A stretch of DNA of 64,000 nucleotides from an uncultured Clostridia bacterium (lineage in GTDB: Bacteria; Bacillota; Clostridia; Christensenellales; CAG-917), in assembly GCA_944332815.1 (NCBI GenBank), contig CALVKQ010000006.1:1-64000 (forward strand), written 5' to 3'. Below are positions 8,721 through 24,877 of this stretch, piece after piece (position 1 is the first letter of the stretch; each line of letters opens with the position of its first letter). The notes under the pieces were generated by a model. The model searched no databases and was not told the DNA's origin. It saw nothing but the letters and a program-made list of their open reading frames with translations. The position numbers and the translations under genes were made by a program.

Positions 8721-9040
8721 TCCATGCGCGATCAAAGATCAAATCCGCTTGCAAATAAGAGAAAACCCCCTTGCCGGATCAAATGCTCCGCCATGCAAAG
8801 AGGTCATTGTAAAATGTGCTGTGGAGCGAAAATGAGTGAGAGAGGGATAGTTTAGAGCAAGGCGAAAAACGAGGAGTGAAGCGACGGAATAGCGTATTTT
8901 GCGCCATCTGATCCGCGTGCAGCGTTCACGTGGGGCGCAATGGGGTCCCCGGGCGAAAATCTCTGATTTTCGGTTGGGGCAAAATCGCGTCAGCCACAGG
9001 GAGAAAGTCCCGTTTGCGAAAAAGAAAGTCCCGTGACACT
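8721..9040. other. Repeat-rich gap left of the island
   Basis: No gene is supported here. GAGGAGTGAAGCGACGGAATAGCG-like sequence occurs at 8871-8894 and again at 9074-9097. A hairpin unit starting GGGGTCCCCGGGCGAAAATC at 8942-8980 belongs to the family found in tandem between the tRNA genes at 31799-31934. The rest shows nothing recognisable. Confidence 0.7.
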
Positions 9041-9058
9041 TCACGGGACTTTGGTGCG
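8984..9058 (-). repeat. 75-bp direct repeat with tRNA-type terminator, copy 1
   Basis: This 75-bp stretch recurs exactly at 9117-9191. Read on the minus strand it begins at the last bases of a tRNA (CGCACCA). It continues with AAGTCCCGTGA, a four-base loop, TCACGGGACTT and then CTTTTT, a strong intrinsic terminator. In this copy the tRNA end is that of tRNA-Leu(CAG). It was presumably the native terminator of that tRNA before the island inserted. Confidence 0.85.
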
Positions 9059-10714
9059 CGGGACGGGACTTGTAAGGAGCGAAGCGACGGAATAGCGATC
9101 GTTGCACAAGGTGCCGATCGCGTCAGCCACAGGGAGAAAGTCCCGTTTGCGAAAAAGAAAGTCCCGTGACACTTCACGGGACTTTGGTGCGGAGTGCCGG
9201 AATTTGTACGAACACAAGGAGAAAGAAGAAGCAGATCGGGAAGCGTCCTCGACCTGCTTTTCTAATTGCTCGACATAAGATTTGCAGAACCTGTCCGTTG
9301 CGGCGTACTCTTGGAAGTTGTAGGTGATGACGATGTGGTCGCCGTACCAGAGGATATCGCGGATAAAGGTGTTGACGAGCAGTTTTCGTGTTTTGATATC
9401 GTCCGGATCTTCGAATACTTTGGAGAGCAGATACTTTTCCACGTCCTCCACGGTGACGTGGGCGTAAGTTTTCTGCGCTTCTTTGTTTATCTCGATGTCC
9501 AGCCTGTTCAGTTCGTCCTGCAATGCCGCCAACCTGTCTTTCGTAAAGTCCATTATGATGCCTTGTTCGATGGCTTTCACGATATTGTCGGCGGCGCGTT
9601 TAGCTTCTTCACGTTTTTTGATGAGGATCTGCAAGCCCGAATTGTCGCGCATCATCTTTTCATGCACTTTGACTATGGCCTCAGCTATCTTCGTGATGAT
9701 GCTGTTTCTTTGCAACATTGATACGGTAGCGTCGATGACATAATCCTCAAGTTCTTGCTTTTTAACGGCTTTGCAATCGCAGTTCGTCTTTCCGCGCCGT
9801 TTGGAGAGGCAGACATAGTAGTAATGGATCTCTCCGTTTCTCGATGTGCCGCTTTCTCCGCTCATGCGGTGTTTACAGTTTCCGCAGATGAGCTTTCCCG
9901 AGAGTATGTAGTCGAAGATCTCTTTCTTGCGGCTAGGCGAAATTTTGTTTTCCCGATTGATTGCGTCCACTTGGTTCCAGACCTCCTTTGCGATGATGGG
10001 CGGAAAGATGTTGTAATAAGTTGTTCCCTGATGAGTAACTTCTCCGATGTAGCGTTTGTCGTGCAGGATGACATAGACGTATTTGTGGTTTATATGTTTT
10101 CCGCACTTGCGGCGGATGTTCCGCGCTTTCAGATCTTCGGCGATAGCGACGGCTTTATAACCCTGCGCGTATTTCATAAATATCTCACGCACGACCTCCG
10201 CCTCGGATTCGTCTATGACATATTTTTTATCTTTAATCACATAACCGTAAGGCGGATGACCGCCCGTGGCGTTGCCTTTGAGCCAACTTTCGCGCAGACC
10301 GCGGTTGACTTTTTGTTTGAGGTCTTCCGAGAAATATTCGTTGAACCCTTCGATGACGGCAAGGAACAGCTTTCCTTCGGGCGTGTCGGGGATATTCTCC
10401 ATAGCGGAAACGAGTTCCACGCCGTTGTCTTTGAGCTTTTTGCGATTGACGACCGATTCGTACTTATTGCGGGCAAACCTGTCAAGTTTGTAAACGATGA
10501 CCGCGCCCCATTGGGCTTTTTTGCTGTCCCGCAGCATTTGCTGGAATGCCGCTCGGTTGTCGTTTGTTCCTGTGGTCGCTCTGTCGATGTACTGATCGAC
10601 GACGAGAAGATCGTTCTTTTCCGCGAACTGTTTGCAGACGCGGACTTGTCCTTCGATGGATTGCTCCGTCTGGCTGTCAGATGAATATCTGGCATAGATG
10701 ACCGCTGTTTTCAT
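9041..10714 (-). CDS. Large serine recombinase
   Basis: This 557-residue site-specific recombinase would integrate or excise a mobile element through a serine-DNA intermediate. The N-terminal resolvase domain (about 1-150) has YARYSSDSQ with the probable catalytic Ser11 and YKLDRFARN. A recombinase domain follows (about 165-270), then a zinc-ribbon (CGNCKHRM and CLSKRRGKTNCDC) and a coiled coil (about 355-440). AGGAGG precedes the ATG by eleven bases. From about residue 490 the frame runs through a tRNA-like 3' end and the terminator repeat. The last 60 or so residues are therefore encoded by target-site DNA and are probably not native. The gene diverges from the HTH gene at 11199. Confidence 0.9.
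   Translation of the reverse strand: MKTAVIYARYSSDSQTEQSIEGQVRVCKQFAEKNDLLVVDQYIDRATTGTNDNRAAFQQMLRDSKKAQWGAVIVYKLDRFARNKYESVVNRKKLKDNGVELVSAMENIPDTPEGKLFLAVIEGFNEYFSEDLKQKVNRGLRESWLKGNATGGHPPYGYVIKDKKYVIDESEAEVVREIFMKYAQGYKAVAIAEDLKARNIRRKCGKHINHKYVYVILHDKRYIGEVTHQGTTYYNIFPPIIAKEVWNQVDAINRENKISPSRKKEIFDYILSGKLICGNCKHRMSGESGTSRNGEIHYYYVCLSKRRGKTNCDCKAVKKQELEDYVIDATVSMLQRNSIITKIAEAIVKVHEKMMRDNSGLQILIKKREEAKRAADNIVKAIEQGIIMDFTKDRLAALQDELNRLDIEINKEAQKTYAHVTVEDVEKYLLSKVFEDPDDIKTRKLLVNTFIRDILWYGDHIVITYNFQEYAATDRFCKSYVEQLEKQVEDASRSASSFSLCSYKFRHSAPKSREVSRDFLFRKRDFLPVADAIGTLCNDRYSVASLLTSPVPRTKVP
9052..9072. repeat. Island attachment site, left copy
   Basis: These 21 bases are identical to 24878-24898, the 3' end of tRNA-Leu(CAG). 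On the minus strand the site reads as the 3' T-arm and acceptor strand ending CGCACCA, followed directly by the terminator of repeat copy 1. Confidence 0.82.
9117..9191 (-). repeat. 75-bp direct repeat with tRNA-type terminator, copy 2
   Basis: Exact copy of 8984-9058. Here the bases before it on the minus strand (about 9213-9185) read ACAAATTCCGGCACTCCGC then ACCA, which looks like the 3' end of a different tRNA. The copy lies inside the island and inside the 3' end of the serine recombinase frame. It may mark an older insertion site that was carried along. Confidence 0.75.
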
Positions 10715-11198
10715 TGGTGGTTATTCCTCCTGAATTTTTTGCTTACAGCATACGCCTTTACGGCAGGGGCGAACAGGCACGGGGAGTGTAGTGTTTCCCA
10801 TCCGTTTCCCAACGTACCGGTACAAAATCCCAACGGAAGGGATATTGTTTCGGCACGTCTTTTCTGCCTTTCGGCGCGACCGAAACGGGAGAGCGAAGCG
10901 CGGTCTGTCAAAGGTCTGCCCGCAAGGAACGTGAGGGAATTTTGTCTGTGTTTTCTCATTTATGGTTTTCTCAAAATTGCCGCGCGCCTTTGACGGACAA
11001 AGCCGCTCTCCCAACATCCCGAAGACGAAAGGCAGAAGGCGCATTCATGCGATCGTTCGGCATGGTAGAAAAATAAGCAAAAATTTTTTCAAATAGGAAA
11101 ATAGTCTTCCTATTTGGCTGATAAAAATTTCTTGAAAGTCGCAAAAAGCTTGCGACATACCCTGATAGAGTGAAAGAAAAGATAGCGGGAGGAACGCC
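10715..11198. other. Intergenic region between recombinase and HTH gene, with two hairpins
   Basis: About 480 bases lie between divergent genes. Near the right end are two perfect small palindromes: CAAATAGGAA / TTCCTATTTG at 11090-11116 and GTCGCAA / TTGCGAC at 11138-11156. They could be a replication or regulatory site for the element. Open frames on the minus strand (e.g. 10721-11044) have no ribosome-binding site or recognisable domain, and I do not call them genes. Confidence 0.5.
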
Positions 11199-11507
11199 AT
11201 GACGACGGAAGAGATCCGAAAAGAACTGAAAACCATTCGCCTGTATTATGCGGACAAGGCGAAGATGGACGCTGCCTTTCAAGTCCTTCCGCACAAAACG
11301 GCGGATCTCGTGAGATCTTACGCGGAGGTCATCCGCGACGCCCCTCTTGATTTATACAGGATCTACTTCGAACTTTACGTCATGGGGCTGACGCAGGAGG
11401 CCGCGGCGGAAGAACTCAATTACTCCTGCGAGTATGTCCGCATGAAAAACAAGAAACTTTTGGAGTATCTCCGAGAGAATATATCAAAAAGGAGGGAAGC
11501 GGCATGA
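11199..11507 (+). CDS. Small sigma-70 region-4-like HTH protein
   Basis: The 102-residue product ends in a helix-turn-helix of the sigma region 4 type (about 62-95: ELYVMGLTQEAAAEELNYS and CEYVRMKNKKLLEYL). Such small sigma-like proteins are common in clostridial mobile elements and usually control their genes; promoter specificity cannot be read here. A ribosome-binding site (GCGGGAGGA) precedes the ATG. Two palindromes upstream (11090-11116, 11138-11156) are possible binding sites. It is the first gene of the short mobile-element operon leading to Rep. Confidence 0.75.
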   Translation: MTTEEIRKELKTIRLYYADKAKMDAAFQVLPHKTADLVRSYAEVIRDAPLDLYRIYFELYVMGLTQEAAAEELNYSCEYVRMKNKKLLEYLRENISKRREAA

Positions 11508-11590
11508 CAAACAAATGCTTTGTGCGGCTGAAAGCACCGTAACGGACAAGGACGGACAAAACAAATTTTATCTGAAAGGAGGTGATGTGA

Positions 11591-11752
11591 GTGGAAGAGA
11601 TAGAGGTCAAAAGAAACCCTCTCGGCATCAAAGTCTTTGTCGTGGGCAAGCCCGACATCGAGCATATGACCGAGGACGAGTACGGCCTCTTCGTTTCTTC
11701 TCTGGAAATGCGGATGAACGAATATTTGGAAAAGATGAATGAAAGCAAGTGA
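11591..11752 (+). CDS. Small 53-residue protein of the mobile module
   Basis: A GTG-started frame encodes 53 residues beginning MEEIEVKRNPLGIKVFVVGK and ending YLEKMNESK. It is preceded by a near-perfect Shine-Dalgarno, AAGGAGGTGAT (11576-11586), which strongly supports it as a gene despite its size. It is acidic, with a short beta-like start and a C-terminal helix, and I recognise no family. It lies between the HTH gene and Rep in the same direction. A 12-codon frame (ATG at 11504, overlapping the HTH stop) lies just upstream and could be a leader peptide. Confidence 0.65.
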   Translation: MEEIEVKRNPLGIKVFVVGKPDIEHMTEDEYGLFVSSLEMRMNEYLEKMNESK

Positions 11753-11884
11753 GACATGCGGACGGAACATAGCGCGTGGCAAAGCGGCTGCCGTAATTCC
11801 GTATGTGAAAATGAAGTTATAACTCTCATCCGCCTCGGAAGAAATGAAGAGCAGAAATTCATTTTATTCAAGGAGGATACAAAC

Positions 11885-12880
11885 ATGCCGTATGGCAAAG
11901 TAAAAGTCTATTCGGACGGAGGACATTATATCGGGATCCCTTACGAGCCTAATCCTTATGCTAAGAAACGCCGCAAGGCTCCCGAAGAAGTGATAGCCGT
12001 CAAGGGACAAGCCGAGGGATCGGCAACCGCATCCGCAGAAAATGCGGACGGAAATGACACCGCCCCTGCGGAGCGGAGAAAAGCCGATGCGATATCCGAA
12101 GAACGGCGTATGACGCGCAAGGAACTGTTTGAGGAACTGTATCAAAAAAGCGTAGCTATGGAAGTGAACGAGCGGCAGGAATTTATCCGCAAGGAGATGA
12201 CGCCCTGCTTCGGGAGTGAAGAGCAGTGTGCGGAGTTTGTAGCGCAAAATCTCGAACGGAAACACCGCAACATGATCTGCCGCAAAGTACGGTTGTGGCG
12301 AAAGATAAACCAGCAGCAATTCAATTTCTTCGTGACTTTCACGTTCGATGACAAGCTGCACGACGAAGAAAGTTTCCGGAAGGCATTGAGCAGGTGTTTG
12401 CAGCATTTCAGTTCGCGCAAGGGTTGGCGATACATAGGAGTTTGGGAGAGGGCACCCGGTACGCAACGGCTGCACTTTCACGGGATATTCTGTATCCCCG
12501 AAGGTACGCTGCCCGGCAGAAATGAGGAAGTGCGGGACTTCGATACGAGAGCACGGAAGATGCGTACGACCTATCAGAACGACTTCTTCGGCAAGAAGTT
12601 CGGCAGGAATGATTTCAAGCCCATAGTCTACGCTTCCGAAGTGCCGCAGGCGATACGATATCTGACCAAGTATTTGGAAAAGACGGGTGAAAAACTCGTC
12701 TATTCTAGAGGCCTGTATCGTTATTTCGTGACGGATGTTATGGACGAAGACATCATCTGTTCTTACGGTGAGAATGAAAGGAAGTTTATACTTTCGGACA
12801 AGTTCAGCTGCTGGGACGACGGAGAGTATATCGGCACGGTAAGCCCCGAAGTAATCGCAAGGCTCCCGAAAGTGACATAG
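11885..12880 (+). CDS. HUH-type rolling-circle replication initiator (Rep)
   Basis: This 331-residue protein has the three marks of an HUH endonuclease. They are a hydrophobic motif I (FNFFVTFTFDD, 146-156), the metal-binding LHFHG (196-200, H197 and H199) and a tyrosine motif III (AIRYLTKYLEK, 256-266; Y259 or Y263 as nucleophile). Such enzymes nick one strand to start rolling-circle replication or transfer. The ATG at 11885 follows AGGAGG at 11871-11876; a longer frame from 11756 lacks a ribosome-binding site. Two large hairpins lie directly after the gene, a common position for origin structures. It would copy the excised circular form of the element (inference). Confidence 0.82.
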   Translation: MPYGKVKVYSDGGHYIGIPYEPNPYAKKRRKAPEEVIAVKGQAEGSATASAENADGNDTAPAERRKADAISEERRMTRKELFEELYQKSVAMEVNERQEFIRKEMTPCFGSEEQCAEFVAQNLERKHRNMICRKVRLWRKINQQQFNFFVTFTFDDKLHDEESFRKALSRCLQHFSSRKGWRYIGVWERAPGTQRLHFHGIFCIPEGTLPGRNEEVRDFDTRARKMRTTYQNDFFGKKFGRNDFKPIVYASEVPQAIRYLTKYLEKTGEKLVYSRGLYRYFVTDVMDEDIICSYGENERKFILSDKFSCWDDGEYIGTVSPEVIARLPKVT

Positions 12881-12913
12881 CGGATCATCTGATGGTGAAA
12901 ATCAAGGTATAGT

Positions 12914-13072
12914 GCGACGATGTAAGCGGGCGATTCGCCAAGCGGGTCAGCGGCGAACGCCCGCATCGTCGCCGCCTTTGATTTCCGTTTGCCCGCTTTG
13001 CCTGTTCGGGCGTGCGCTTGGCTTCGGCGAGGCGTCAGCCGAGCCGACTTGTATATAAGCCAAGCGCACGCC
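12914..13072. other. Two large hairpins after rep, possible origin
   Basis: The first hairpin pairs GCGACGAT (12914-12921) with ATCGTCGC (12965-12972), with further pairing inside (GCGGGCG / CGCCCGC). The second pairs GGCGTGCGCTTGGCTT (13009-13024) exactly with its complement at 13057-13072. Neither is followed by a T-run, so simple termination is unlikely. Beside an HUH Rep they are candidates for a nick site or single-strand origin. Confidence 0.5.
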
Positions 13073-13112
13073 TAACTGCCATTTGAGAAAAATAACCTGT
13101 TTTGGAGGGAAC

Positions 13113-14027
13113 ATGAAATACATAGACTGGGTCATTCAATGGCTGGAAAACTATATCCGCCCGTCCGTCAAAGTGCGGACTTACGAGCGGTACAGGCTTA
13201 TAGTAGAGCAGCATATCAAAGACAAGACCGGCAGCATAGAGCTGAACGATTTGTCTCCGCTTGTCCTGCAATCGTTCATAACAGAGCTTTTGCAAAGCGG
13301 CAATAAAAAAACGGGGAAAGGCTTATCTGCTAACAGCGTCAATGCAATTATCTCTGTCATCCAAAGTTCGCTTAAAACAGCACATCTTTTGGGACTGACG
13401 AGGGAATACACGGCGGATAAACTCAAACGCCCAAAGCTGAAAGAAAAACCTGTGGAGTGCTTTACACTCGCCGAGCAAAAGAGGATAGAGCAAGCAATCC
13501 TGAACGGCAAAAAGGATAAGCTATACGGCATCATTCTTTGCCTTTACAGCGGATTGCGTATCGGGGAACTCATCGCCCTGCAATGGGATGATATTGACTT
13601 AACGAAAGGCATACTGACCATTTCCAAGTCCTGCCATGACGGCAAAGACGGGCTCATTATAGACGAGCCGAAAACCGCCACTTCTCGCCGAATAATACCG
13701 TTGCCGAAACAGTTGCTGCCCATCCTCAGAAGCGTGAAGAAAAGGAGCGATTCGTCCTCCGTGGTGTCTGCAAACGGAAAGCCCGTTTCTGTGCGTTCCT
13801 ACCAGCGAAGTTTTGAATTGCTCCTGAAAAAGCTAAAGATCCCGCACAAAGGCTTTCACTCTCTGCGGCATACTTTCGCCACCCGCGCCTTAGAGTGCGG
13901 CATGGATGTAAAAACATTGTCCGAGATATTAGGACATAAAAATCCGACAGTAACCCTCAACCGCTATGCTCACTCCCTTATGGAGCATAAGGCGGATATG
14001 ATGAACAGGCTCGGCAAGCTTCTCTAA
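13113..14027 (+). CDS. Tyrosine recombinase/integrase
   Basis: This 304-residue tyrosine recombinase has an N-terminal SAM-like core-binding domain (about 1-100) and a C-terminal catalytic domain. All expected residues are visible: R149 (SGLRIGE), K187 (EPKTATS), H249 and R252 (HSLRHTF), H275 (LGHKN) and Y285 (NRYAHS). The ATG at 13113 is preceded by GGAGG (13104-13108). A TTG-started frame from 13083 lacks such a signal. It sits in the middle of the island and not at an end. It ends 11 bases before a pair of sites with inverted cores flanking the promoter of the restriction-modification operon. It may therefore be a DNA invertase, the island integrase, or both. Confidence 0.92.
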   Translation: MKYIDWVIQWLENYIRPSVKVRTYERYRLIVEQHIKDKTGSIELNDLSPLVLQSFITELLQSGNKKTGKGLSANSVNAIISVIQSSLKTAHLLGLTREYTADKLKRPKLKEKPVECFTLAEQKRIEQAILNGKKDKLYGIILCLYSGLRIGELIALQWDDIDLTKGILTISKSCHDGKDGLIIDEPKTATSRRIIPLPKQLLPILRSVKKRSDSSSVVSANGKPVSVRSYQRSFELLLKKLKIPHKGFHSLRHTFATRALECGMDVKTLSEILGHKNPTVTLNRYAHSLMEHKADMMNRLGKLL

Positions 14028-14038
14028 AAGTGCAAAAA

Positions 14039-14065
14039 GTACACTGATTTTCCCAATCTATGAAC
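14039..14065. repeat. Recombination site 1 of putative invertible segment
   Basis: Arm GTACACTG (14039-14046), core ATTTTCCCAAT (14047-14057), arm CTATGAAC (14058-14065). Site 2 at 14189-14215 has the same left arm, a similar right arm and the exact reverse complement of the core. An arm-core-arm layout of this size is what a tyrosine recombinase uses. Confidence 0.7.
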
Positions 14066-14146
14066 AAAAAACATGAAAGCATATTTGTATACCGAACCAA
14101 TCATGAGTAAGTGATGATTTATTTGTGATAGGCTGCAATCAATATC

Positions 14147-14175
14147 TTGTTTTTAATATTAGTTTTTGCTATAAT
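14147..14175 (+). promoter_or_regulatory. Promoter inside the putative invertible segment
   Basis: TTGTTT (14147-14152) and TATAAT (14170-14175), 17 bases apart, give a good sigma-A promoter pointing right. Transcription would start near 14182, cross site 2 and enter the helicase gene at 14323. If the segment flipped, the promoter would face the tyrosine recombinase gene and the operon would lose it. Confidence 0.72.
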
Positions 14176-14188
14176 TTAATTAGGAAAA

Positions 14189-14215
14189 GTACACTGATTG
14201 GGAAAATACATGAAC
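14189..14215. repeat. Recombination site 2 of putative invertible segment
   Basis: Arm GTACACTG (14189-14196), core ATTGGGAAAAT (14197-14207), arm ACATGAAC (14208-14215). The core is the reverse complement of the core of site 1, and the two sites lie 150 bp apart. Confidence 0.7.
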
Positions 14216-14322
14216 ATAATGTTTTTATTTGTTCGTGGATTAATCGTCCGAATAGACGGCCGACATTCCGGATGTGTGCGCTTCAAGAGTAAAGCCGAAG
14301 AGGTCGTTTGGCGGACTGAAGG

Positions 14323-17300
14323 ATGAAGATCATAGACAACATTAACCACACTGTAAAAGGTGACTTGCAAGTAGAGATTCATAAAGGCAGCAAACTGTCC
14401 ATAGCTGCCGCATGCTTTTCGATCTATGCCTATCGGGAGTTGAAAAAGCAGTTGGAGAGTATAGACGAGCTGCGTTTTATCTTCACTTCGCCTACTTTTT
14501 TAACGGAAAAAACGCCAAAGGCGCAGCGGGAATTTTACATTCCTCGCCTTACCAGGGAGCGCAGCTTGTACGGTACCGAATTTGAGGTGAAGCTCCGCAA
14601 TGAGTTGGCGCAAAAGGCTATTGCGAAGGAGTGCGCGGATTGGATCAGAAAGAAAGTCACTTTCAAATCGAACGTGACACAGGAACAGATGATGGGTTTC
14701 ATCACAGTCGATGAAAACACTTATATGCCGATCAATGGTTTTACAACCGTGGATCTCGGTTGCGAACGCGGCAATAATGCCTATTATTTTGTACAAAAGA
14801 CGGAGAGCCACGAAAACTCACAATATTACATAAGGCTGTTCGACCAGCTTTGGAACGATAAGAAAAAGCTCAGGAAAGTCACTGACATTGTGCTGGAAAA
14901 CATAACTGCGGCTTATCGGGAGAATGCGCCGGAATATATCTATTTCTTTGCCTTATACAATATCTTCCACGAGTTTTTGGACGACATCTCCGAAGACGAA
15001 TTGCCGAATGAGGCGAATGGTTTCAAGGAAAGCAAAATTTGGGGGATGCTGTACGACTTTCAGCGCGATGCGGCGCTGGCGATCATCAACAAGCTGGAAA
15101 AATACAACGGCTGCATTTTGGCGGACAGCGTGGGTCTCGGCAAAACATTTACCGCGCTTGCGGTGATCAAGTACTACGAGAACCGAAACAAATCCGTGCT
15201 GGTGCTGTGTCCCAAAAAGCTGTCCGAGAACTGGAACACCTACAAAAGCAACTATGTCAACAATCCGATTGCGGAAGATCGGCTCGGCTACGATGTGCTG
15301 TATCACACCGATCTTTCGCGCGAACGGGGAAAGTCCAACGGGATTGATCTCGAGCGGCTGAATTGGGGCAATTATGACCTGGTTGTAATTGACGAAAGCC
15401 ACAACTTCCGCAACGGAGGGGAAATCTCCGGAGAGGGGGCGAAAGAGAACAGATATCTGAGGCTGATGAACAAGGTGATAAGGACGGGTGTGCGCACGAA
15501 AGTTTTGATGCTTTCTGCAACTCCTGTCAACAACAAGTTCATCGACCTGAAAAATCAGCTTGCGCTTGCCTATGAAGGGGACGCAAAACAAATCAACGAA
15601 AAGCTCTCGACCACCAAAAGCATAGATGAGATCTTCCGTCAGGCACAAAAAGCATACAATGCATGGTGCAAATTGCCCGCGGAAAAACGGACGACGGAGG
15701 TATTGCTGCGCACGCTCGACTTTGACTTTTTCGAATTGCTGGACAGTGTGACCATAGCGCGCTCCAGAAAACACATCGAGAAGTATTACAATGTCTCCGC
15801 AATAGGGAAGTTCCCGGAGCGTCTTGCCCCGATCTCGCTGCGACCGTGTCTAACCGACCTCAGCGGCGCCATCAATTACAACGATATTTACGAGCTTTTG
15901 ATGTCGTTGAATCTGACAATCTACACCCCATCCAACTTTATCATGCCGTCAAGGATGGCAAAGTACGCCGCGCTCTCGCACAATAAGGACAATACGCTTA
16001 CGCAGCAAGGAAGAGAAGAGGGAATACGGCGGTTGATGAGCATCAACCTTCTCAAAAGGCTGGAAAGCTCGGTATATTCGTTCAGGCTCACCGTTGACCG
16101 AATCAAGGCACTTATAGACAGCACGATAGAAACGATAAACAATTACCGTGCCGGCGGCTGTGTTCTGAACTTGACGGAGATCTCCGACGGCGAAGACTTC
16201 GACTATGACGATCAAAACACGGACTATTTTTCGGTAGGGAAGAAAGTCAGGATTGATCTTGCCGACATGGACTATGTGTCGTGGGAACGGGAGCTTGAAC
16301 AGGACGCCGAAACGCTTGAATTGTTGTCGAGCATGATCGCCGACATCACTCCCGAGCATGACACAAAACTCCGCACGCTTTTCGGATTGATCGAGAACAA
16401 GATTGCACACCCGATAAATCCCGGCAACCCCAAGATAATCATTTTCACCGCGTTCTCCGACACGGCGGATTATCTTTATGCAAACGTAAGTAAATTTGCA
16501 AAAGAGAAGTTCGGTTTGGAAACGGCAGAGATCACCGGCACGGTGGACGGCAGAAGCACGATTCCGAAGCTGCGTTCCGACATGAACACCGTGTTGACGT
16601 GTTTTTCCCCAATCTCCAAAGGAAGAGCGGTGCTGCTCCCCGGCAGTGCGGCGGATCTCGACATCCTGATTGCCACAGATTGCATATCGGAAGGGCAGAA
16701 CCTGCAGGACTGCGACTACTTGATCAATTATGACATCCACTGGAACCCCGTGCGGATCATACAGCGCTTTGGACGGATCGATCGCATAGGCAGCCAAAAC
16801 GCGCGCATCCAACTCGTGAATTTCTGGCCCGATATGGACCTTGATGAGTACATAAATCTGAAGAGCCGCGTGGAAACCAGGATGAAGATAACCATCATGA
16901 CGTCAACAGGCGACGATGACCTCATCAATGCGGAGGAAAATGGAGACTTGGAATATCGCAGGGCGCAGCTCAAGCGTTTGCAGGAAGAAGTCGTCGACAT
17001 CGAGGATATGACAAACGGCATTTCCATTATGGATCTGGGTTTGAACGAGTTCCGCCTCGACTTGCTGGAATACATGAAAACGCATGAGGACATCGAAACT
17101 GCCCCCAAAGGACTGCATGCGGTCGTGGGAAGGGCGGAGGACGCGCCTGCGGGCGTGATCTTTGTGCTGCGCAACATCAACGACAGCGTGAACGTCGACA
17201 ACCGCAACCGCATCCACCCGTTTTATATGGTCTACATCGGAAGTGACGGCGAGATCGTCTGCGACTATCTTGCCCCCAAAAAGTTGCTCGACGCCATACG

Positions 17301-17547
17301 ACTGCTTTGTCGCGGTAAAAGCGAACCGTGCGCGGAGCTTTGCAAAGCGTTCAATGACGAAACGGACGACGGCCGCAATATGGGAGAGATATCGCAGCTG
17401 TTGAGCGAGGCAATCAACTCGATCATTGACGTCAAGGAAGAGAGCGACATCGACAGCTTGTTCAAGCGCGGCGGCACGTCGGCACTCCTTTCGGAAGTGA
17501 CGGGCATTCAGGACTTCGAGCTGATATGCTTCATTGTCGTGAAATAG
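14323..17547 (+). CDS. SNF2-family helicase with PLD-like N-terminal domain
   Basis: This 1074-residue superfamily 2 ATPase would translocate on DNA. Residues about 1-200 resemble the phospholipase-D-like domain found before such helicases (KGSKLSIAAACFSIYAYREL), but I see no HKD catalytic motif, so nuclease activity is doubtful. The helicase core has Walker A DSVGLGKT (about 268-275), a DESHNF Walker B (about 357), LSATPVNN and a SNF2-type motif VI (RFGRIDRIGSQN, about 817). The gene leads a five-gene operon with DUF4391, a small unknown gene, Mod and Res. SNF2 helicases with DUF4391 partners accompany some type III-like R-M loci as I recall; their role is not settled. The AT-rich region before it holds the putative invertible promoter. 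Confidence 0.85.
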   Translation: MKIIDNINHTVKGDLQVEIHKGSKLSIAAACFSIYAYRELKKQLESIDELRFIFTSPTFLTEKTPKAQREFYIPRLTRERSLYGTEFEVKLRNELAQKAIAKECADWIRKKVTFKSNVTQEQMMGFITVDENTYMPINGFTTVDLGCERGNNAYYFVQKTESHENSQYYIRLFDQLWNDKKKLRKVTDIVLENITAAYRENAPEYIYFFALYNIFHEFLDDISEDELPNEANGFKESKIWGMLYDFQRDAALAIINKLEKYNGCILADSVGLGKTFTALAVIKYYENRNKSVLVLCPKKLSENWNTYKSNYVNNPIAEDRLGYDVLYHTDLSRERGKSNGIDLERLNWGNYDLVVIDESHNFRNGGEISGEGAKENRYLRLMNKVIRTGVRTKVLMLSATPVNNKFIDLKNQLALAYEGDAKQINEKLSTTKSIDEIFRQAQKAYNAWCKLPAEKRTTEVLLRTLDFDFFELLDSVTIARSRKHIEKYYNVSAIGKFPERLAPISLRPCLTDLSGAINYNDIYELLMSLNLTIYTPSNFIMPSRMAKYAALSHNKDNTLTQQGREEGIRRLMSINLLKRLESSVYSFRLTVDRIKALIDSTIETINNYRAGGCVLNLTEISDGEDFDYDDQNTDYFSVGKKVRIDLADMDYVSWERELEQDAETLELLSSMIADITPEHDTKLRTLFGLIENKIAHPINPGNPKIIIFTAFSDTADYLYANVSKFAKEKFGLETAEITGTVDGRSTIPKLRSDMNTVLTCFSPISKGRAVLLPGSAADLDILIATDCISEGQNLQDCDYLINYDIHWNPVRIIQRFGRIDRIGSQNARIQLVNFWPDMDLDEYINLKSRVETRMKITIMTSTGDDDLINAEENGDLEYRRAQLKRLQEEVVDIEDMTNGISIMDLGLNEFRLDLLEYMKTHEDIETAPKGLHAVVGRAEDAPAGVIFVLRNINDSVNVDNRNRIHPFYMVYIGSDGEIVCDYLAPKKLLDAIRLLCRGKSEPCAELCKAFNDETDDGRNMGEISQLLSEAINSIIDVKEESDIDSLFKRGGTSALLSEVTGIQDFELICFIVVK

Positions 17548-17556
17548 AGGTGCACG

Positions 17557-18210
17557 ATGTTCGGTCTTCCCACACAGACAGAGTTCAACAAACGCGTGCC
17601 GAAACAAAAGTTTTACGACAACTCGGACGTCCCCGCCTCGTTGCGCCGCGTGTTCGCCGAACAGATCAAGGCGGTATATTGGTGCAACAAGCTGGCTCCG
17701 TCCACCTTGCGTGTCGCTCAGGGGGAACGGGTGACAGAGGTCGAAGTCTTCGAATTGCGCCTCAACGCGCCCTCTCTCGACGAAACGGTGCTGCGGCAGA
17801 TTGACAAAGCGATCCCATATCACCTGCTTTTCGTCCTGACTTGCGGCGGCAGAGCACAGGCGTGGATAGGCTATAAGGAAGCGCCCGCAGCAAGCGGCAA
17901 TGCCGTCAAAGTCAAGAGATACTACCACACAGAGTGGATGAGTGACAGCGACTTGCGGTTCGTCATCGACGGGCTTGACATGGACGCTGTGTATGAAAAC
18001 CTTGTCAGGCAGATCGCGGGCGAGAGACTGCAATCGGATAATAACGAAAGCCTGCAAGACTCCGTCAAGCGTGACGAGGAGCGCCGGCAGCTCGAGAAGC
18101 AGATCGCCGCACTTGAAAGCAAACTGCACAAGGAAAAACAACTCAACCGCAGAATGGAGATCAACGCGGAAATAAAGAAGCTGCGGAAAGAACGCGAACA
18201 ACCTCAATAG
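17557..18210 (+). CDS. DUF4391 family protein
   Basis: This 217-residue protein matches the DUF4391 family by its start (MFGLPTQTEFNKRVPKQKFY) and by the block HLLFVLTCGGRAQAWIGYKE. Residues about 165-215 form a charged coiled coil (EERRQLEKQIAALESKLHKE). It starts nine bases after the helicase stop in the same operon. Members sit beside helicases in restriction-type defence loci, and the molecular function is not known to me. The coiled coil suggests it bridges the helicase to other subunits (inference). Confidence 0.82.
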   Translation: MFGLPTQTEFNKRVPKQKFYDNSDVPASLRRVFAEQIKAVYWCNKLAPSTLRVAQGERVTEVEVFELRLNAPSLDETVLRQIDKAIPYHLLFVLTCGGRAQAWIGYKEAPAASGNAVKVKRYYHTEWMSDSDLRFVIDGLDMDAVYENLVRQIAGERLQSDNNESLQDSVKRDEERRQLEKQIAALESKLHKEKQLNRRMEINAEIKKLRKEREQPQ

Positions 18211-18268
18211 AAGCTCTATGCTACAAAATGTGAAAGTTAATCGAATAACTAATCAAAGGAGAAGTGAT

Positions 18269-18739
18269 ATGTGTGATAAAGAAACAAATGAAGCAAATAG
18301 TATTCAGCAAGTGGCAGGAAAAGTCAGAAACATTAATTGGTCTAACTTGACTAAAATTCCGAGTTGTCCATATCCACCAATTGACCATACAAAATTGGAA
18401 GATATCGACCCAATTCCTATAAGAGAGCATATGGAAGCTATGGAAAATTACCAGGCACGTAGTCTTGAAGTGCTTCAAGCAATCGAGGCAAATACCGCTA
18501 ATTTATATACGCTTGTAGAATTAATTAACAAGTCAAATGATATGCAGGATGATTTGCTGGCAATTTTATCTGAAGTTATGGAGATTGCCAAAGCAAAGGA
18601 TAAAAATGATGCGGACTCACGTTATGAAAAAGTGATGAAGAAGATGACCACCCTTTTCAAAACAGGAGAAGTATTAAGCAATTTTACTGGTATTGCAAAG
18701 TTTATATATGACATTGTGATCGCTATAATTCAACAATAA
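18269..18739 (+). CDS. Small AT-rich unknown gene inside the R-M operon
   Basis: This 156-residue protein begins at an ATG preceded by AAAGGAGAAG; an upstream frame from 18218 lacks a ribosome-binding site. It has a proline-rich N-terminal third, a long predicted helix or coiled coil (about 55-130, acidic and lysine-rich) and a hydrophobic C-terminus (IAKFIYDIVIAIIQQ) that could touch a membrane. I recognise no family. Base composition is far more AT-rich than the helicase or DUF4391 genes, and it sits between DUF4391 and Mod. It looks like a separately acquired accessory gene, perhaps an effector or an inhibitor of the system (speculative). Confidence 0.75.
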   Translation: MCDKETNEANSIQQVAGKVRNINWSNLTKIPSCPYPPIDHTKLEDIDPIPIREHMEAMENYQARSLEVLQAIEANTANLYTLVELINKSNDMQDDLLAILSEVMEIAKAKDKNDADSRYEKVMKKMTTLFKTGEVLSNFTGIAKFIYDIVIAIIQQ

Positions 18740-18755
18740 GGATGGAATAAATAAG

Positions 18756-20669
18756 ATGGAAAAGATGAAATTTGAAACGCCGGATATGACGGTGGAGAAT
18801 GTTGAAAAGATTGCGGAGCTGTTCCCGAACTGCATGACCGAAATGCGGGACGAAAACGGAAAAGTCAAGCGCGGGATCAATTTTGAAGTGCTCAAACAGA
18901 TGCTTTCCTCCGACGTGGTGGACGGCGACGAGTGCTATGAGTTCACCTGGGTGGGCAAAAAGGCTTCTATTGCGGAGGCGAACCGGCCTATCCGTAAGAC
19001 GCTGCGCCCCTGCCCCGAGGAGAGCAAAGACTGGGACACGACTGAAAACCTCTATATCGAGGGCGACAATCTGGAAGTTCTCAAGCTTTTGCAGGAAAGT
19101 TATCTCGGCAAGGTAAAAATGATCTATATTGATCCACCCTATAATACGGGAAACGATTTCATCTATGCCGATGACTTCATGCGCTCGCAGGAAGAGGAAA
19201 ACGAGCAAATGGGCATGTACGATGAGGACGATAACCGCCTGTTCAAAAATACCGATTCCAACGGCAGATTTCATTCCGATTGGTGCAGTATGATTTGTTC
19301 TCGGTTACTGTTGGTAAGAAACCTATTGGCGGAAGATGGAGTGATCTTTATTTCTATCGATGACTCAGAATTATATAATCTTAAAAAAATATGTGACGAA
19401 GTTTTTGGCTCGGAGAATTTTATTTGTAATTTTATACGAAAAAACAAAGCTGGAAGCGGGCATGATAGTTCACACATTGCGATTGAATTCGATTATGTTC
19501 TTTGTTATGTAAAATCAATTTCAGTATGTAAAATAAATCAAGAAAAAATTGATGTGGAAATCGACGATAAATATAAGTATGAAGATCAATATGTCGAAAG
19601 GCGCGGAAAATATTATTTGAGAGATCTTGATTATCGAGGAAGTTATAGTGAGGGCTTGGATTATCCTATTGAAACACCTGATGGTACAATAATATACTCT
19701 GGGGGACAATTTGGGCGACCTAATACATGGAGATGGAGCAAACAAAAATTTGAATGGGGAAAGAAAAATGGATTTATTGTATTTCAAAAGCGAGAAGGAA
19801 AATGGAAGGTTTATATCAAACAATATCAGTTTGTCGATAATAACGACGAAATATATGTACGAACAATACCTTATCGAGCACTAATTGATTTTTCAAACGG
19901 ATTAGGATCAACAGAATGTTCAGGACTATTGGGGAACAATGTTTTTTCATATCCAAAGCCCTCTGCATTAGTAAAGCATTTTCTTCAAGTAGCATCCGAC
20001 AAAGATTCTCTCATCCTTGACTTTTTCTCCGGTTCCGCCACCACCGCGCACGCCGTGATGCAGCTCAATGCCGAAGACGGCGGACACCGCAAGTTTATCA
20101 TGGTGCAGCTGCCGGAACCGTGCGATGAACAAAGTGAAGCGTATAAAGCCGGCTACAAAAATATCTGCGAGATCGGCAAAGAGCGCATTCGCCGCGCGGG
20201 CGAAAAAATCAAGGCGGAAAACGGTTTGGCGGTGCAAAACCCCGATGTCGGCTTCCGCGTTCTGAAACTTGCCGACAGCAATATGAAGGACGTCTACTAT
20301 GCCGCGGACGATTACAAGCAGGCAGACCTTTTTGATATGATCTCCAACATCAAGGATGATCGCACCGATTTAGACCTGCTGTTCGGCTGTCTTATAGACT
20401 GGGGAGTTCCGCTGTCCATGTCGTACAAGTCCGAGCAGCTCGACGGGTGCACGGTGCATGTCTACAATGACGGAGACCTGGTCGCCTGCTTTGACGAGAA
20501 CATCCCCGAAAGCGTTGTCAGGAAAATTGCGGAACGCAAGCCGCTGCGCACTGTCTTCCGCGACAGCGGTTTTGCCGACAGCCCTGCAAAGATCAACATG
20601 TATGAGATCTTCAAGATCTATATGCCGGAAGACGCGGATGATATTACCAAGCGTGTAAGAGTGATTTGA
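18756..20669 (+). CDS. mod: Type III restriction-modification methyltransferase (Mod)
   Basis: This 637-residue adenine-N6 DNA methyltransferase of the beta class has the catalytic motif IV DPPYNTG at 126-132 and the SAM-binding motif I DFFSGSATTAHA from 422. This is the order seen in type III Mod. The region between, about residues 180-415 (19290-20000), is the target-recognition domain and is clearly more AT-rich than both flanks. That suggests domain replacement by recombination. Mod recognises the target and both modifies DNA and guides Res. It starts seventeen bases after the unknown small gene and is followed by Res after ten bases. Confidence 0.93.
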   Translation: MEKMKFETPDMTVENVEKIAELFPNCMTEMRDENGKVKRGINFEVLKQMLSSDVVDGDECYEFTWVGKKASIAEANRPIRKTLRPCPEESKDWDTTENLYIEGDNLEVLKLLQESYLGKVKMIYIDPPYNTGNDFIYADDFMRSQEEENEQMGMYDEDDNRLFKNTDSNGRFHSDWCSMICSRLLLVRNLLAEDGVIFISIDDSELYNLKKICDEVFGSENFICNFIRKNKAGSGHDSSHIAIEFDYVLCYVKSISVCKINQEKIDVEIDDKYKYEDQYVERRGKYYLRDLDYRGSYSEGLDYPIETPDGTIIYSGGQFGRPNTWRWSKQKFEWGKKNGFIVFQKREGKWKVYIKQYQFVDNNDEIYVRTIPYRALIDFSNGLGSTECSGLLGNNVFSYPKPSALVKHFLQVASDKDSLILDFFSGSATTAHAVMQLNAEDGGHRKFIMVQLPEPCDEQSEAYKAGYKNICEIGKERIRRAGEKIKAENGLAVQNPDVGFRVLKLADSNMKDVYYAADDYKQADLFDMISNIKDDRTDLDLLFGCLIDWGVPLSMSYKSEQLDGCTVHVYNDGDLVACFDENIPESVVRKIAERKPLRTVFRDSGFADSPAKINMYEIFKIYMPEDADDITKRVRVI

Positions 20670-20679
20670 GGGGCACATT

Positions 20680-23600
20680 ATGTTAAAACTTCAATTCAAA
20701 CATCAAAAATTCCAGGCGGACGCGGCGAAAGCCGTGGTGGATGTGTTCGCGGGGCAGCCGTATCTCACGCCTACTTATATGATAGACAGGGGCATTGACT
20801 ATCAGATGTCCATCACGGACGAGGAGGACTTCACCGGTTGGCGCAATGAACCGATCGTTCCCGGGCTCTCGGATAAGGTTATTTTGAGCAATCTGCAAAA
20901 GGTGCAGCGGGCGAACCAACTCAAGCCATCCGAAAGGTTGGAAGGGTCGAAATCGTGCAAGTATAACCTCACTATCGAGATGGAAACGGGCGTGGGCAAG
21001 ACGTACACCTACATCAAGACCATGTACGAGCTCAACAAGCACTACGGTTGGAGCAAGTTCATCGTCGTGGTGCCGAGCATCGCCATCCGCGAGGGCGTGT
21101 ATAAGTCCTTTCAGGTAACGCAAGAGCATTTCGCCGAGGAATACGGAAAGAAGATCCGCTTCTTCATCTATAATTCCTCGCAGCTGACCGAGATCGACCG
21201 CTTTGCCTCGGATAGTTCCATCAATGTGATGATCATCAATTCGCAGGCGTTCAACGCCAAAGGGAAAGACGCCCGCCGCATTTATATGAAGCTGGACGAG
21301 TTCCGCTCCCGCCGCCCCATTGACATTATCGCAAAAACAAACCCGATCTTGATCATTGACGAGCCGCAGTCGGTCGAAGGAGCACAGACAAAGGAACGGC
21401 TGAAAGAGTTTTGTCCGCTTTTAACGCTGCGCTATTCCGCCACACACAAGGCGGACAGCATTTACAATATGGTCTATCGGCTGGACGCGATGGAGGCGTA
21501 CAACAAGCGGCTGGTGAAGAAGATCGCCGTCAAGGGCATCTCCGAATCGGGCAGCACGGCGACCGAAAGTTATGTCTATTTAGAGGGTATCAACCTCTCC
21601 AAAGCCGACCCGACGGCAACGCTGCAATTCGATTACAAGGGCGCAACGGGACTCCGCAAAAAGACGATGAAGGTCGGCATCGGGTTCAATCTTTACGATA
21701 ACTCCGGCTATTTAGATGAGTATAGGAACGGTTTTGTCGTCAAGTTTATCGACGGGCGTGACAACTCGGTAGAATTTTTGAACGGGATCAAGATCTATGC
21801 GGGCGACGTCATCGGCAAAGTCAGCGAGGAGCAGCTGCGCCGCATTCAGATCCGCGAGACTATCCTTTCCCATATCGAGCGCGAGCGTCAGCTCTTCCAT
21901 AAGGGCATTAAAGTCTTGAGCCTGTTTTTCATTGACGAAGTCGCAAAGTATAAGCAATACGACGAGGCGGGCAATCCCTACAATGGCATTTATGCCGATA
22001 TGTTCGAGGAAGAATATAACGACGTCGTCGGCAATTTGCAGCTGGAATTCGGCGATGAGGATTACGTCAAATATCTCGACGCCATCTCCGCGCACGATAC
22101 GCACGCCGGCTATTTTTCCATTGATAAGAAAGGTAAAATGACGGATGGAAAGATCGATAAAAAGGAGAGAACTTCCGACGATATCGATGCGTATGACCTG
22201 ATCATGAAGAATAAAGAACTGCTCCTCGACCGCGATCCGAAGCGTTCGCCCGTGCGGTTTATCTTTTCGCACTCCGCCTTGCGGGAAGGCTGGGATAACC
22301 CGAATGTGTTCCAGATCTGCACGCTGAAACAAAGCAGCAGCGAAGTGCGCAAGCGGCAGGAAGTCGGGCGAGGTTTGCGCCTTTGCGTCAATCAGGACGG
22401 CGAGCGCATGGACGTCAACGCACTGGGAAGCGATGTGCATGCCGTCAATGTTCTTACGGTCATCGCCAGCGAAAGTTACGATAGCTTTGCAAGAGGCTTG
22501 CAGGAGGAATTGGCAGACGCCGTCGCAGACCGCCCCGTTGCGGTCACAGCGGATTTGTTCAAAGACAAAGTGCTCACGGATGCGAATGGCAACGAGCAAA
22601 TCGTGGACGGAGAGTTGGCACAAGCGATTTGCTTTGAACTCATCGTCAACGGGTACATCGATAAAAAAGGCGCTTTGACTGATAAATATTATGCCGATAA
22701 GGCAAACGGCGAAATTAAGGTAGCCGAGGAAGTCGCAGGCAGCAGCGGCTCGATCATGGATATTTTGGATTCCGTCTATGACAGCCGCGCCATGCAGCCC
22801 GAAAATGCTCGTGACAAGAATGTGGAATTGCAGGTAGATTCCGAAAAGCTTGCTATGCCGGAGTTCAAAGCGCTGTGGCAGCGGATTAGTCCCAAGTCCG
22901 TCTACGTCGTCGATTTTGACACGGATGAGCTGGTGAGGAAATCAATTGACGCCATCAACCGAAAACTCTTCATTCCGAAGGTGTTCTTCAAGGTGGAAAC
23001 AGGCGTGATGGAGGAGATTAAGTCTAAAGACGAGTTGTTGGAAGGGGGGGCTTTTGAAAAGACCCGGTCTTCCACCTATGACAACTGCAAGCGGATTCGC
23101 GTCAACAATAGCGTTAAATATGACCTTGTCGGGAAAATCGTCGGCGAAACGGGTCTGACGCGGAAGGCGGTGGTGGAAATTCTGGTCGGCATTGAGAAAA
23201 GCGTATTTGACCAATTCGCCTACAACCCGGAAGAGTTTATCATCAAAGCGTCAGATTTGATCAATGACGAAAAGGCCACGGCGATCGTTCAGCACATCAC
23301 TTATAACATGCTGGATGAGCGCTATGACACCAAGATTTTCACCGAACCGACGATAAAGGGTCGGCTGGGCGTAAATGCCATGAAAGCGCAGCGGCACTTG
23401 TATGATCATATCATTTATGACTCTACCAATGAGCGCGATTTTGCCTCCGATATGGATACAAGCGCTGATGTTGCCGTGTATGTGAAGTTGCCCGACAGCT
23501 TTTACATCGCAACGCCTGTAGGCAAGTATAATCCCGACTGGGCAATAGCGTTTTACGAGGGAACGGTAAAGCATATCTACTTCGTGGCGGAAACAAAGGG

Positions 23601-23745
23601 CTCGATGTCCTCCCTGCAACTGCGGTTGATAGAAGAGTCCAAGATTCATTGCGCGAGAGAACACTTCAAAGCGATCAGTAGCGGCAATGTCGTCTATGAT
23701 GTAGTTGACAGCTATCAAGCGCTTTTGGATAGGGTTATGAAATAA
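20680..23745 (+). CDS. res: Type III restriction-modification endonuclease/helicase (Res)
   Basis: This 1021-residue Res subunit has a DEAD-like ATPase with Walker A ETGVGKTYTY (about 101-110), Walker B IIDEPQS (about 225), YSATHK, and a motif VI block RKRQEVGRGLRLCV. The C-terminus has a PD-(D/E)XK nuclease pattern, NPDWAI about residue 953 and ETKGS about 970. Length and order are normal for the family, and nothing looks broken. With Mod it should cut unmodified DNA after two head-to-head sites. It is the last gene of the operon and is followed by a terminator. Confidence 0.93.
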   Translation: MLKLQFKHQKFQADAAKAVVDVFAGQPYLTPTYMIDRGIDYQMSITDEEDFTGWRNEPIVPGLSDKVILSNLQKVQRANQLKPSERLEGSKSCKYNLTIEMETGVGKTYTYIKTMYELNKHYGWSKFIVVVPSIAIREGVYKSFQVTQEHFAEEYGKKIRFFIYNSSQLTEIDRFASDSSINVMIINSQAFNAKGKDARRIYMKLDEFRSRRPIDIIAKTNPILIIDEPQSVEGAQTKERLKEFCPLLTLRYSATHKADSIYNMVYRLDAMEAYNKRLVKKIAVKGISESGSTATESYVYLEGINLSKADPTATLQFDYKGATGLRKKTMKVGIGFNLYDNSGYLDEYRNGFVVKFIDGRDNSVEFLNGIKIYAGDVIGKVSEEQLRRIQIRETILSHIERERQLFHKGIKVLSLFFIDEVAKYKQYDEAGNPYNGIYADMFEEEYNDVVGNLQLEFGDEDYVKYLDAISAHDTHAGYFSIDKKGKMTDGKIDKKERTSDDIDAYDLIMKNKELLLDRDPKRSPVRFIFSHSALREGWDNPNVFQICTLKQSSSEVRKRQEVGRGLRLCVNQDGERMDVNALGSDVHAVNVLTVIASESYDSFARGLQEELADAVADRPVAVTADLFKDKVLTDANGNEQIVDGELAQAICFELIVNGYIDKKGALTDKYYADKANGEIKVAEEVAGSSGSIMDILDSVYDSRAMQPENARDKNVELQVDSEKLAMPEFKALWQRISPKSVYVVDFDTDELVRKSIDAINRKLFIPKVFFKVETGVMEEIKSKDELLEGGAFEKTRSSTYDNCKRIRVNNSVKYDLVGKIVGETGLTRKAVVEILVGIEKSVFDQFAYNPEEFIIKASDLINDEKATAIVQHITYNMLDERYDTKIFTEPTIKGRLGVNAMKAQRHLYDHIIYDSTNERDFASDMDTSADVAVYVKLPDSFYIATPVGKYNPDWAIAFYEGTVKHIYFVAETKGSMSSLQLRLIEESKIHCAREHFKAISSGNVVYDVVDSYQALLDRVMK

Positions 23746-23748
23746 GAA

Positions 23749-23791
23749 AAAAGCCTCTTTCGTAACCTTCAAAGGTTCGATCGAGGCTTTT
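23749..23791. terminator. Bidirectional terminator between res and the HTH gene
   Basis: AAAAGCCTC (23749-23757) pairs with GAGGCTTTT (23783-23791), with AACCTT / AAGGTT pairing in the loop. The T-run on the plus strand and the A-run at the left end would end transcription of both convergent genes. Confidence 0.8.
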
Positions 23792-23817
23792 ACGTTTGTA
23801 TGAATTCATAAGTCATA

Positions 23818-24489
23818 TTACAATGTGCCGTAAAGATTATAGTATCTTTGACGAATACTTGCCTTGCGATGGTTTATCGTGCCTCTTCCGATGCCGAGTT
23901 CGGCACAGACTTCAGCTTGCACCATGCCGTTCATATAGCAGTTCAAGATGGCAAGTTCCAAAGCGGATAACCGTAATGCGCCGACGAGTTCATCGTATTT
24001 CGTGTAATCCGTCTGTTCGTGTTCAAAGCAGTTGACGGGATCCATGGGCAGAGCCTTATAATCCGTAAAGTCAATGGATTCAATGATAGTTCCGCGCCTG
24101 TCCGTTCTGTTACGAAGAAGATTGATAAAGTGGTCTACTTCGCGGTAGCAGGCAAGTTTTATACTGATTTTCTTTCCTTTGCGGTCTTTTCCATAAATCT
24201 CATTGGCGGTATGACCGACAAATTGATACAGAAAGCAAATAGCGGTCTGAGCGACATCATAGCCGTCAGATACGATATAATCTACTTCACTCATATGGTG
24301 CAGGTCTTTGATGAGTCCGATATACAGCCTGTCTGCTACATTCATATCGAACTTCTTTACAGTACGCAAAGCTTGCAATGCGATCATCTCGCCCATGAGT
24401 TTGACGTTTTCGGCGGAGATTACCTCTTTGAACAATTCACCCTCGTTGCGATACTTTCCGTTTGAGAACTTGGTTACCAACATTTCCAT
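23818..24489 (-). CDS. HTH protein with sigma region-4-like C-terminus
   Basis: The 223-residue product has an unrecognised N-terminal part (about 1-160) and a C-terminal helix-turn-helix (about 175-218: ALELAILNCYMNGMVQAEVC and AELGIGRGTINHRKASIRQR) like sigma-70 region 4 or phage late regulators. AGAGGTG precedes the ATG at 24489, and a longer frame to 24543 has no such signal. It converges on res and is the last gene before the tRNA. It may control island genes; no target site is evident. Confidence 0.7.
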   Translation of the reverse strand: MEMLVTKFSNGKYRNEGELFKEVISAENVKLMGEMIALQALRTVKKFDMNVADRLYIGLIKDLHHMSEVDYIVSDGYDVAQTAICFLYQFVGHTANEIYGKDRKGKKISIKLACYREVDHFINLLRNRTDRRGTIIESIDFTDYKALPMDPVNCFEHEQTDYTKYDELVGALRLSALELAILNCYMNGMVQAEVCAELGIGRGTINHRKASIRQRYYNLYGTL

Positions 24490-24830
24490 CTTTACACCTC
24501 TGAATTTGTATTTGCATTTTTCGGGCAACAGGCGGAGGTGCATAGGACGGTAAATATCAGTGCACTAAATAGCGAGCCTGCGGAAGTCAACGGAACAAAG
24601 CCAAAATCGTTGCGTACAAGTCTGGAAATGCCTTATAGACAGTAAAAGAGCCGAGCAAGGAAACAATCTCCTCACTCGGCTCTCAAAGTCTTTAGATAGG
24701 TGTTTTAAGCGACGATTTTGCGACCGTTGATGTCCGCGATGAGCTATGCTACCATAGCCGACCGAAAAAGCGCAAATTCAAGAGGTGCTACTGCAATCGG
24801 ACAATCATTCCGAAGAAATCGCATGCAAAA
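24490..24830. other. Right end of the island, no gene seen
   Basis: A hairpin (AGAGCCGAG at 24647-24655 with CTCGGCTCT at 24675-24683) is the only clear structure. Read on the minus strand it is followed by TTTTAC, so it could end transcription leaking from the tRNA toward the HTH gene. No supported gene. Confidence 0.5.
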
Positions 24831-24871: not shown

Positions 24872-24877
24872 CTGGTC

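Follow-up and report, generated by a model that had tools for sequence, protein, structure and literature searches.

The locus described here lies in a 15.8-kb island at positions 9052-24898 of the window, by which we mean the whole 64-kb stretch of DNA that was analyzed. The island is bounded by 21-bp copies of the 3' end of a tRNA-Leu gene, and between these repeats it contains a serine recombinase gene at the left end, a replication-initiator-like (Rep-like) gene, a switch module, an operon and a gene for a right-end protein, as listed below.

9041-10714, minus strand: large serine recombinase (Ccr-like), probable island integrase; Pfam Resolvase, Recombinase and Zn_ribbon
9052-9072, plus strand: left end of the island, a copy of the tRNA-Leu 3' end, TGGTGCGCGGGACGGGACTTG; exact 21-bp repeat of 24878-24898
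11756-12880, plus strand: replication-initiator-like protein (REP_ORF2-G2P); PF23343, 4e-11
13113-14027, plus strand: tyrosine recombinase of 304 aa, probable invertase; PF00589 (7e-27) and PF14659
14323-17547, plus strand: SNF2-type helicase, first gene of the operon; PADLOC C3a139 (HKD+Snf2), 2.9e-123 over the full length; Pfam SNF2 and Helicase_C
17557-18210, plus strand: DUF4391 protein; PF14335, 2e-59
18218-18739, plus strand: 173-aa protein with no assigned function; weak PHROG 10213 match, 1.7e-12
18756-20669, plus strand: type III methyltransferase (Mod); PADLOC MTase_III, 7e-221
20680-23745, plus strand: type III restriction subunit (Res); PADLOC REase_III, 2.8e-282
23818-24543, minus strand: island right-end protein with no family match; conserved right end
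24878-24965, minus strand: tRNA-Leu (CAG), whose 3' end forms the right boundary of the island

The adjacent Mod and Res genes are those of a type III restriction-modification system, as predicted from their families. Relatives of the Rep-like gene are found upstream of the tyrosine recombinase in many loci, and the right end of the island (23786-24870) is also conserved in many loci, in several of which a tRNA gene adjoins it. Related left genes and right-end sequence recur with other cargo near genes for tRNA-Leu, -Ser, -Val, -Ala or tmRNA. The loci L034 and L050 carry the module near tmRNA or tRNA-Val genes. In genome G032, which has no relative of the tyrosine recombinase, the left-flank repeats lie about 200 bp from the same tRNA-Leu; this locus is apparently close to the empty site, with the island absent. 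At L142:4252-4478 (genome G028), the left end of the island is preceded by a match to the right end of the window's island, an arrangement that suggests that islands sit in tandem at a single site. Locus L029 contains two direct repeats, exact over 28-29 bp, beside tRNA-Leu and 15 kb to its left (2015-2072 and 17436-17493); they are possibly the ends of another island. A search of the other loci for exact end repeats of at least 11 bp returned long ones only in L029, where they lie beside the tRNA and not in it; the left ends of the islands at the other loci have probably diverged or lie outside the examined stretch. A dispersed repeat at 8984-9071, 9117-9204 and about 8880-8990 of the window has more than 50 matches in the genome and many in the genus, and it overlaps the serine recombinase frame at its C-terminal end.

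The putative switch is located between the tyrosine recombinase and helicase genes and has the following parts.

14039-14065, plus strand: recombination site 1; arm L GTACACTGATT, spacer TTCCC, arm R AATCTATGAAC
14050-14204, no strand: invertible segment, spacer to spacer inclusive; reversed in genomes G028 and G031
14147-14175, plus strand: predicted promoter TTGTTT-17-TATAAT, directed toward the operon (ON); placement shared across switches
14189-14215, plus strand: recombination site 2; arm L GTACACTGATT, spacer GGGAA, arm R AATACATGAAC

In each 27-bp site, two 11-bp arms in inverted orientation flank a 5-bp spacer. The two arm types, L (GTACACTGATT) and R (AATNNATGAAC), are imperfect inverted repeats of each other. 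The spacers (14050-14054 in site 1 and 14200-14204 in site 2) are reverse complements, and the inverted sites enclose a short intergenic segment of 155 bp, as is characteristic of promoter invertons. Site 1 starts 11 bp past the stop codon of the tyrosine recombinase, which ends at 14027, and site 2 ends 107 bp before the first operon gene. With up to three mismatches allowed, the site pattern occurs at only two places in the 64-kb window, compared with 0.00 in dinucleotide shuffles. A preliminary description of this DNA had placed both sites, with their reverse-complementary cores, correctly to the base, and had also reported the end of the recombinase 11 bp to the left. What it called an 11-bp core is indeed reverse-complementary between the sites and is really the 5-bp spacer plus 3 bp of each arm, while its direct-repeat arms, which are present, correspond to the outer parts of the 11-bp L and R arms. 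Further sites can be sought with the motif GTWCAYNNADT-N5-AHTNNRTGWAC.

The same description had read the present state as one product of an inversion and had proposed a search for the opposite state in related genomes. When 297 genomes of the order, taken to be Christensenellales from the organism names of the relatives, were searched by pattern, the predicted post-inversion site 1, GTACACTGATTTTCCCAATCAGTGTAC, was found as an exact match in two genomes of the same genus, G028 (L032/L142) and G031 (L030/L143), which we count as two genomes and not four. The description had named the lack of any inverted relative among its grounds for refutation, and this outcome did not arise. Around the switch, G028 shares 80% identity with the unaltered window, which rises to 98.9% when 14050-14204 is flipped in silico; the corresponding values for G031 are 74% and 98.3%. 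Both junctions in both genomes are as predicted for inversion between the 5-bp spacers. In L032, identity to the window is 99% in the segment, 98% in the downstream flank and about 90% in the surrounding island. Opposite states were also observed for L066 and L067 (segment identity 0.98 when inverted, flank 1.00), L048 and L056 (1.00 when inverted), and L029 and L036 (0.84 when inverted, flank 0.88). Both orientations thus occur in nature, but all of these comparisons are between species-level genomes, and that a single population switches between the two states is our inference from them.

In order to examine the sites more widely, relatives of the tyrosine recombinase were oriented and the two best sites 3' of each gene were picked by arm consensus alone, the spacer being left out of the choice. 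Perfectly reverse-complementary spacers were found in 37 of 48 loci of the first set, compared with 2.0% between loci, and in an enlarged non-redundant set in 65 of 75, compared with 2.1%. The 65 matching loci contain 40 distinct spacers; the other 10 tested pairs have spacers that do not match. The arm-consensus search gave no site pair above threshold in 32 further relatives, and 8 loci had too little sequence for the test. The distances between paired sites group near 117-118, 137-140, 146-150 and 158-160 bp, with centres at about 117.5, 138, 148.5 and 159 bp, and the groups are spaced by roughly whole helical turns. For a period of 10.5 bp the resultant is 0.78, the loci being related and the period not sharp, a suggestive hint at looping constraints. 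Of the 396 genomes of the order that were sampled, 82 carry members of the recombinase family, at up to five per genome. The viral contigs searched gave only distant recombinases of 24-33% identity, and the module was therefore not seen in phages by that search.

The tyrosine recombinase has a SAM-like N-terminal domain and a phage-integrase catalytic domain, with the catalytic Tyr at about residue 285. The PDB entries it matches are named only 'Int protein', and we take them to be Tn1549 Int, which is then its best solved relative (E 1e-18) and aligns with it at the catalytic R, K, HxxR, H and Y. Published work on Tn1549 Int (PMC5871717), which also informs this assignment, describes a substrate of two 11-bp imperfect inverted repeats and a 5-bp crossover region. 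Our 11-5-11 layout was derived from the sequence before it was compared with that substrate, and it also agrees with the 11-bp inverted repeats and 5-7 bp crossover regions of the Tn916/Tn1549 group. Filing the protein as a transposon integrase was rejected, there being no transposon ends at the sites and both opposed sites lying on one side of the gene. The adjacent tyrosine recombinase is probably the enzyme that flips the segment, as indicated both by the matched spacers of 65 loci and by the resemblance of the sites to the substrate of Tn1549 Int. Switches are known whose enzyme is encoded at a distance, such as those flipped by RecV of Clostridioides difficile, and the segment could in principle be inverted by another recombinase of the cell (e.g. 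XerC/D or a distant invertase), the adjacent gene being incidental. This we regard as very unlikely: the site layout suits an enzyme of the Tn1549 Int kind, and for 65 of 75 relatives the matching pair of sites is found no more than about 220 bp from the stop codon of the recombinase, whatever the cargo.

Within the segment, TTGTTT (14147-14152) and TATAAT (14170-14175) are separated by 17 bp and point rightward into the operon, as had been described; the case for a promoter here is made by comparative placement. The -10 hexamer ends 24 bp before the spacer of site 2, and among the 65 switches a -10 hexamer ends 20-26 bp before one spacer in 57, compared with 5.9% of shuffles. The best promoter score over the 65 segments is 12.5, compared with 9.9 in shuffles. 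The position of the promoter inside the segment, as expected of a promoter inverton, is thus given by the comparison in 57 of 65 loci, the single-sequence scan being negative: a simple strict consensus scan of the window did not call the inverton promoter, because the -35 hexamer matches at only 3 of 6 positions, and consensus scans of L032 for promoters and terminators returned one unrelated match only. That the promoter keeps the same position in 57 of the 65 segments implies selection on regulation. The promoter points away from the cargo (OFF) in 49 of the 65 switches and into it (ON) in 15, with one unclear; an even split is unlikely (p about 2e-5, relatedness ignored), and both states are scattered over the recombinase family. 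By its promoter position the window copy would be ON, in line with the earlier call and with the position common to the 57 loci.

These results also bear on whether the switch is active. Old inversions that were fixed between species would leave opposite states between species-level genomes only, which is the distribution we observe. However, spacers that are still reverse-complementary in 65 loci, with 40 different sequences, require repeated exchange or selection; moreover, in three comparisons oppositely oriented segments share 98-100% identity, and ON and OFF copies are both spread across the family. Fixed inversions in place of an active switch are hence extremely unlikely. Alternatively, the tyrosine recombinase might itself be the island integrase, with the sites as left-over attachment sites and the flip as a rare, non-regulatory by-product. 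The 3' ends of tRNA genes are a common target of tyrosine integrases, and this recombinase, whose closest solved relative is a transposon integrase, is carried by an island inserted at such an end. However, the island ends are copies of the 21-bp tRNA 3' end and are unlike the switch sites, a large serine recombinase is encoded at the left end, many relatives have a site pair and promoter with no tRNA in the examined stretch, and the fixed promoter position points to regulation. We consider this alternative very improbable; there is probably a division of labour in which the serine recombinase acts as integrase and the tyrosine recombinase as invertase.

In the OFF state, site 1 consists of an L arm joined to an inverted L arm, which in the window locus gives AAAAGTACACTGATT-TTCCC-AATCAGTGTACTTTT. 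The resulting 15-bp hairpin ends in T residues and has a calculated energy of -18.0 kcal/mol, compared with -3.0 kcal/mol for site 1 in the ON state. Past the 27-bp site, a mean of 4.6 of 8 positions pair in the OFF state (first 37 loci), compared with means of 1.9 in the ON state and 3.2 at site 2 in OFF, and the pairing at OFF site 1 often runs 4-8 bp past the site and ends in A/T tracts. A strong OFF-only hairpin was found in 13 of 23 close loci (at least 75% recombinase identity), in 4 of the 13 loci of intermediate identity and in 4 of the 28 distant loci, and the opposite case in two close, one intermediate and two distant loci. The hairpin is possibly a switch-coupled terminator in the window's clade, where it would insulate recombinase and cargo from one another in the OFF state. 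A terminator common to the whole family was ruled out, the feature being limited to the window's clade and some others. The hairpin could also be a by-product of the symmetric recombinase arms at a real switch, with no stop to transcription: the terminator scan at the window switch called none, and the hairpin is weak or absent in many distant relatives. The extension of the pairing into A/T tracts beyond the site and the frequency among close relatives argue against a by-product, to which we give a chance slightly below even. It may be speculated that a recombinase transcript left unstopped in the ON state biases switching from ON to OFF, by analogy with fimE, which would fit the excess of OFF copies.

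The genes behind the switch are variable. In L032 the 173-aa gene is swapped for a different gene, leaving an alignment gap at 18180-18734 of the window. Comparison of 18218-20250 with L032 gave 24-55% identity in the middle of Mod (about residues 250-500) and 74-98% in most of the remainder. From these alignments, it looks as if the recognition domain was exchanged together with the neighbouring gene. A second type III pair is found behind related recombinases in L035, L043, L046, L053 and L183, and an Eco57I-like system with a T5orf172 helicase protein in L029, L031, L036, L155, L200 and L215. Large surface proteins of the BspA/Big_2/InlB type are the cargo of many related recombinases, and further cargo includes Hsp70 plus AAA, radical SAM and SPFH proteins. 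At L037:11168-15061 a similar switch precedes a small radical SAM/SPASM operon, possibly a peptide-modification cluster. A single origin of the restriction-modification cargo was rejected, since 15 changes of the restriction label are needed over the tree of 53 recombinases, compared with 14.1 expected for shuffled labels; switch and cargo thus appear to be freely exchanged.

Taken together, we put the probability at about 90% that this locus is a promoter-inverton phase-variation switch of the helicase-DUF4391-173 aa-Mod-Res operon, worked by the adjacent tyrosine recombinase, in an island at tRNA-Leu. This reading is drawn from sequence comparison, and the proposal of the preliminary description that the recombinase flips the promoter and phase-varies the defence operon is thereby supported in its structure and likely in its function. 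The OFF hairpin, the wide spread of this switch family and the enclosing island go beyond that description. The tyrosine recombinase (13113-14027) would bind both 11-5-11 sites, align them through the reverse-complementary spacers TTCCC and GGGAA, and flip the 155-bp segment 14050-14204. In the ON state the segment promoter would point right and transcribe the operon. In the OFF state, the orientation seen in G028 and G031, it would face the recombinase gene, the operon would lose the segment promoter, and the hairpin at site 1 may stop transcripts from either side. With the promoter flipping between ON and OFF, the defence would probably be made by only part of a population. Switch and operon would travel in a mobile island, probably inserted by the serine recombinase at its left end. 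Against this reading stand the weakness of the -35 hexamer, the simple scans that call neither promoter nor OFF terminator, and the fact that another promoter could also drive the operon in cells.

If the reading holds, a complete anti-phage restriction system, with both enzyme and methylase, is under the control of a reversible DNA flip, and a population could therefore mix defended and undefended cells as well as differently methylated genomes. It also raises the question of how a cell survives when restriction turns ON while its DNA is unmethylated. More broadly, we think it somewhat likelier than the contrary that tRNA-inserted islands of Christensenellales share a control module, comprising a Tn1549-Int-like invertase, a promoter flipper of about 150 bp and, in one clade, OFF terminators, and that their cargo, which ranges from restriction-modification systems to giant surface proteins and other genes, is freely exchanged. 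Newly captured genes, those for defence included, would then come at once under phase variation. That the family is so widespread among the sampled genomes, with cargo that can be exchanged, points to a control module of general use in hard-to-culture gut bacteria.

The locus shares features with several known systems. SCC cassettes carry a Ccr recombinase of the large serine kind, a replication gene and exchangeable cargo that includes restriction-modification genes, as does the island described here. In contrast to SCC, the island lies at a tRNA 3' end, its cargo has a promoter switch, and its serine recombinase is under the Ccr cut-offs. Membership among SCC (Ccr) cassettes was rejected, the match to CcrB (2e-40) scoring 138.9 bits against a cut-off of 900 and the insertion being at tRNA-Leu and not at rlmH. 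With the Tn1549/Tn916 integrases the tyrosine recombinase shares catalytic-domain sequence, and its sites share the 11-bp inverted repeats and 5-bp crossover region (PMC5871717), but no transposon ends lie at the window's sites and it cannot be classed as moving a conjugative transposon. Since the spacers match within a locus, exchange here looks homologous and intramolecular, unlike that of Tn1549/Tn916. Promoter inversion is also the principle of fimS in Escherichia coli, and precedents for the candidate OFF terminator are the one proposed at the inverted-repeat junction of cwpV in C. difficile and the orientation-dependent terminator after fimE (PMC2784873). In contrast to fimS and cwpV, the site itself makes the hairpin here by joining two L arms, in addition to the inversion of a promoter; the cargo also differs, and the recombinase comes closest to Tn1549 Int.

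Promoter invertons that adjoin a tyrosine recombinase gene are already known, including in Clostridia, where gut inverton group 139 with invertase group 35 likewise combines a short invertible segment with such a gene, and invertons of this group flip in culture (PMC11892184). The passages of that study compared here give surface genes and hsdS as the neighbours of group 139 and do not mention Christensenellaceae; compared with the group as presented there, the cargo here is a whole type III system. In the literature searched, we found no invertible promoter of a type III or other defence system. As far as that search goes, three features are new: the control of a whole type III system by a promoter flip, the combination of a site-made OFF hairpin with promoter inversion, and the mobile setting with swappable cargo. 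Known phase-variable type III systems likewise have Mod and Res, and the locus here shares with them a probable ON/OFF variation. The cases we found vary through simple repeats inside mod, whereas the promoter flip described here would control the whole operon and would thus also cover restriction and the helicase.
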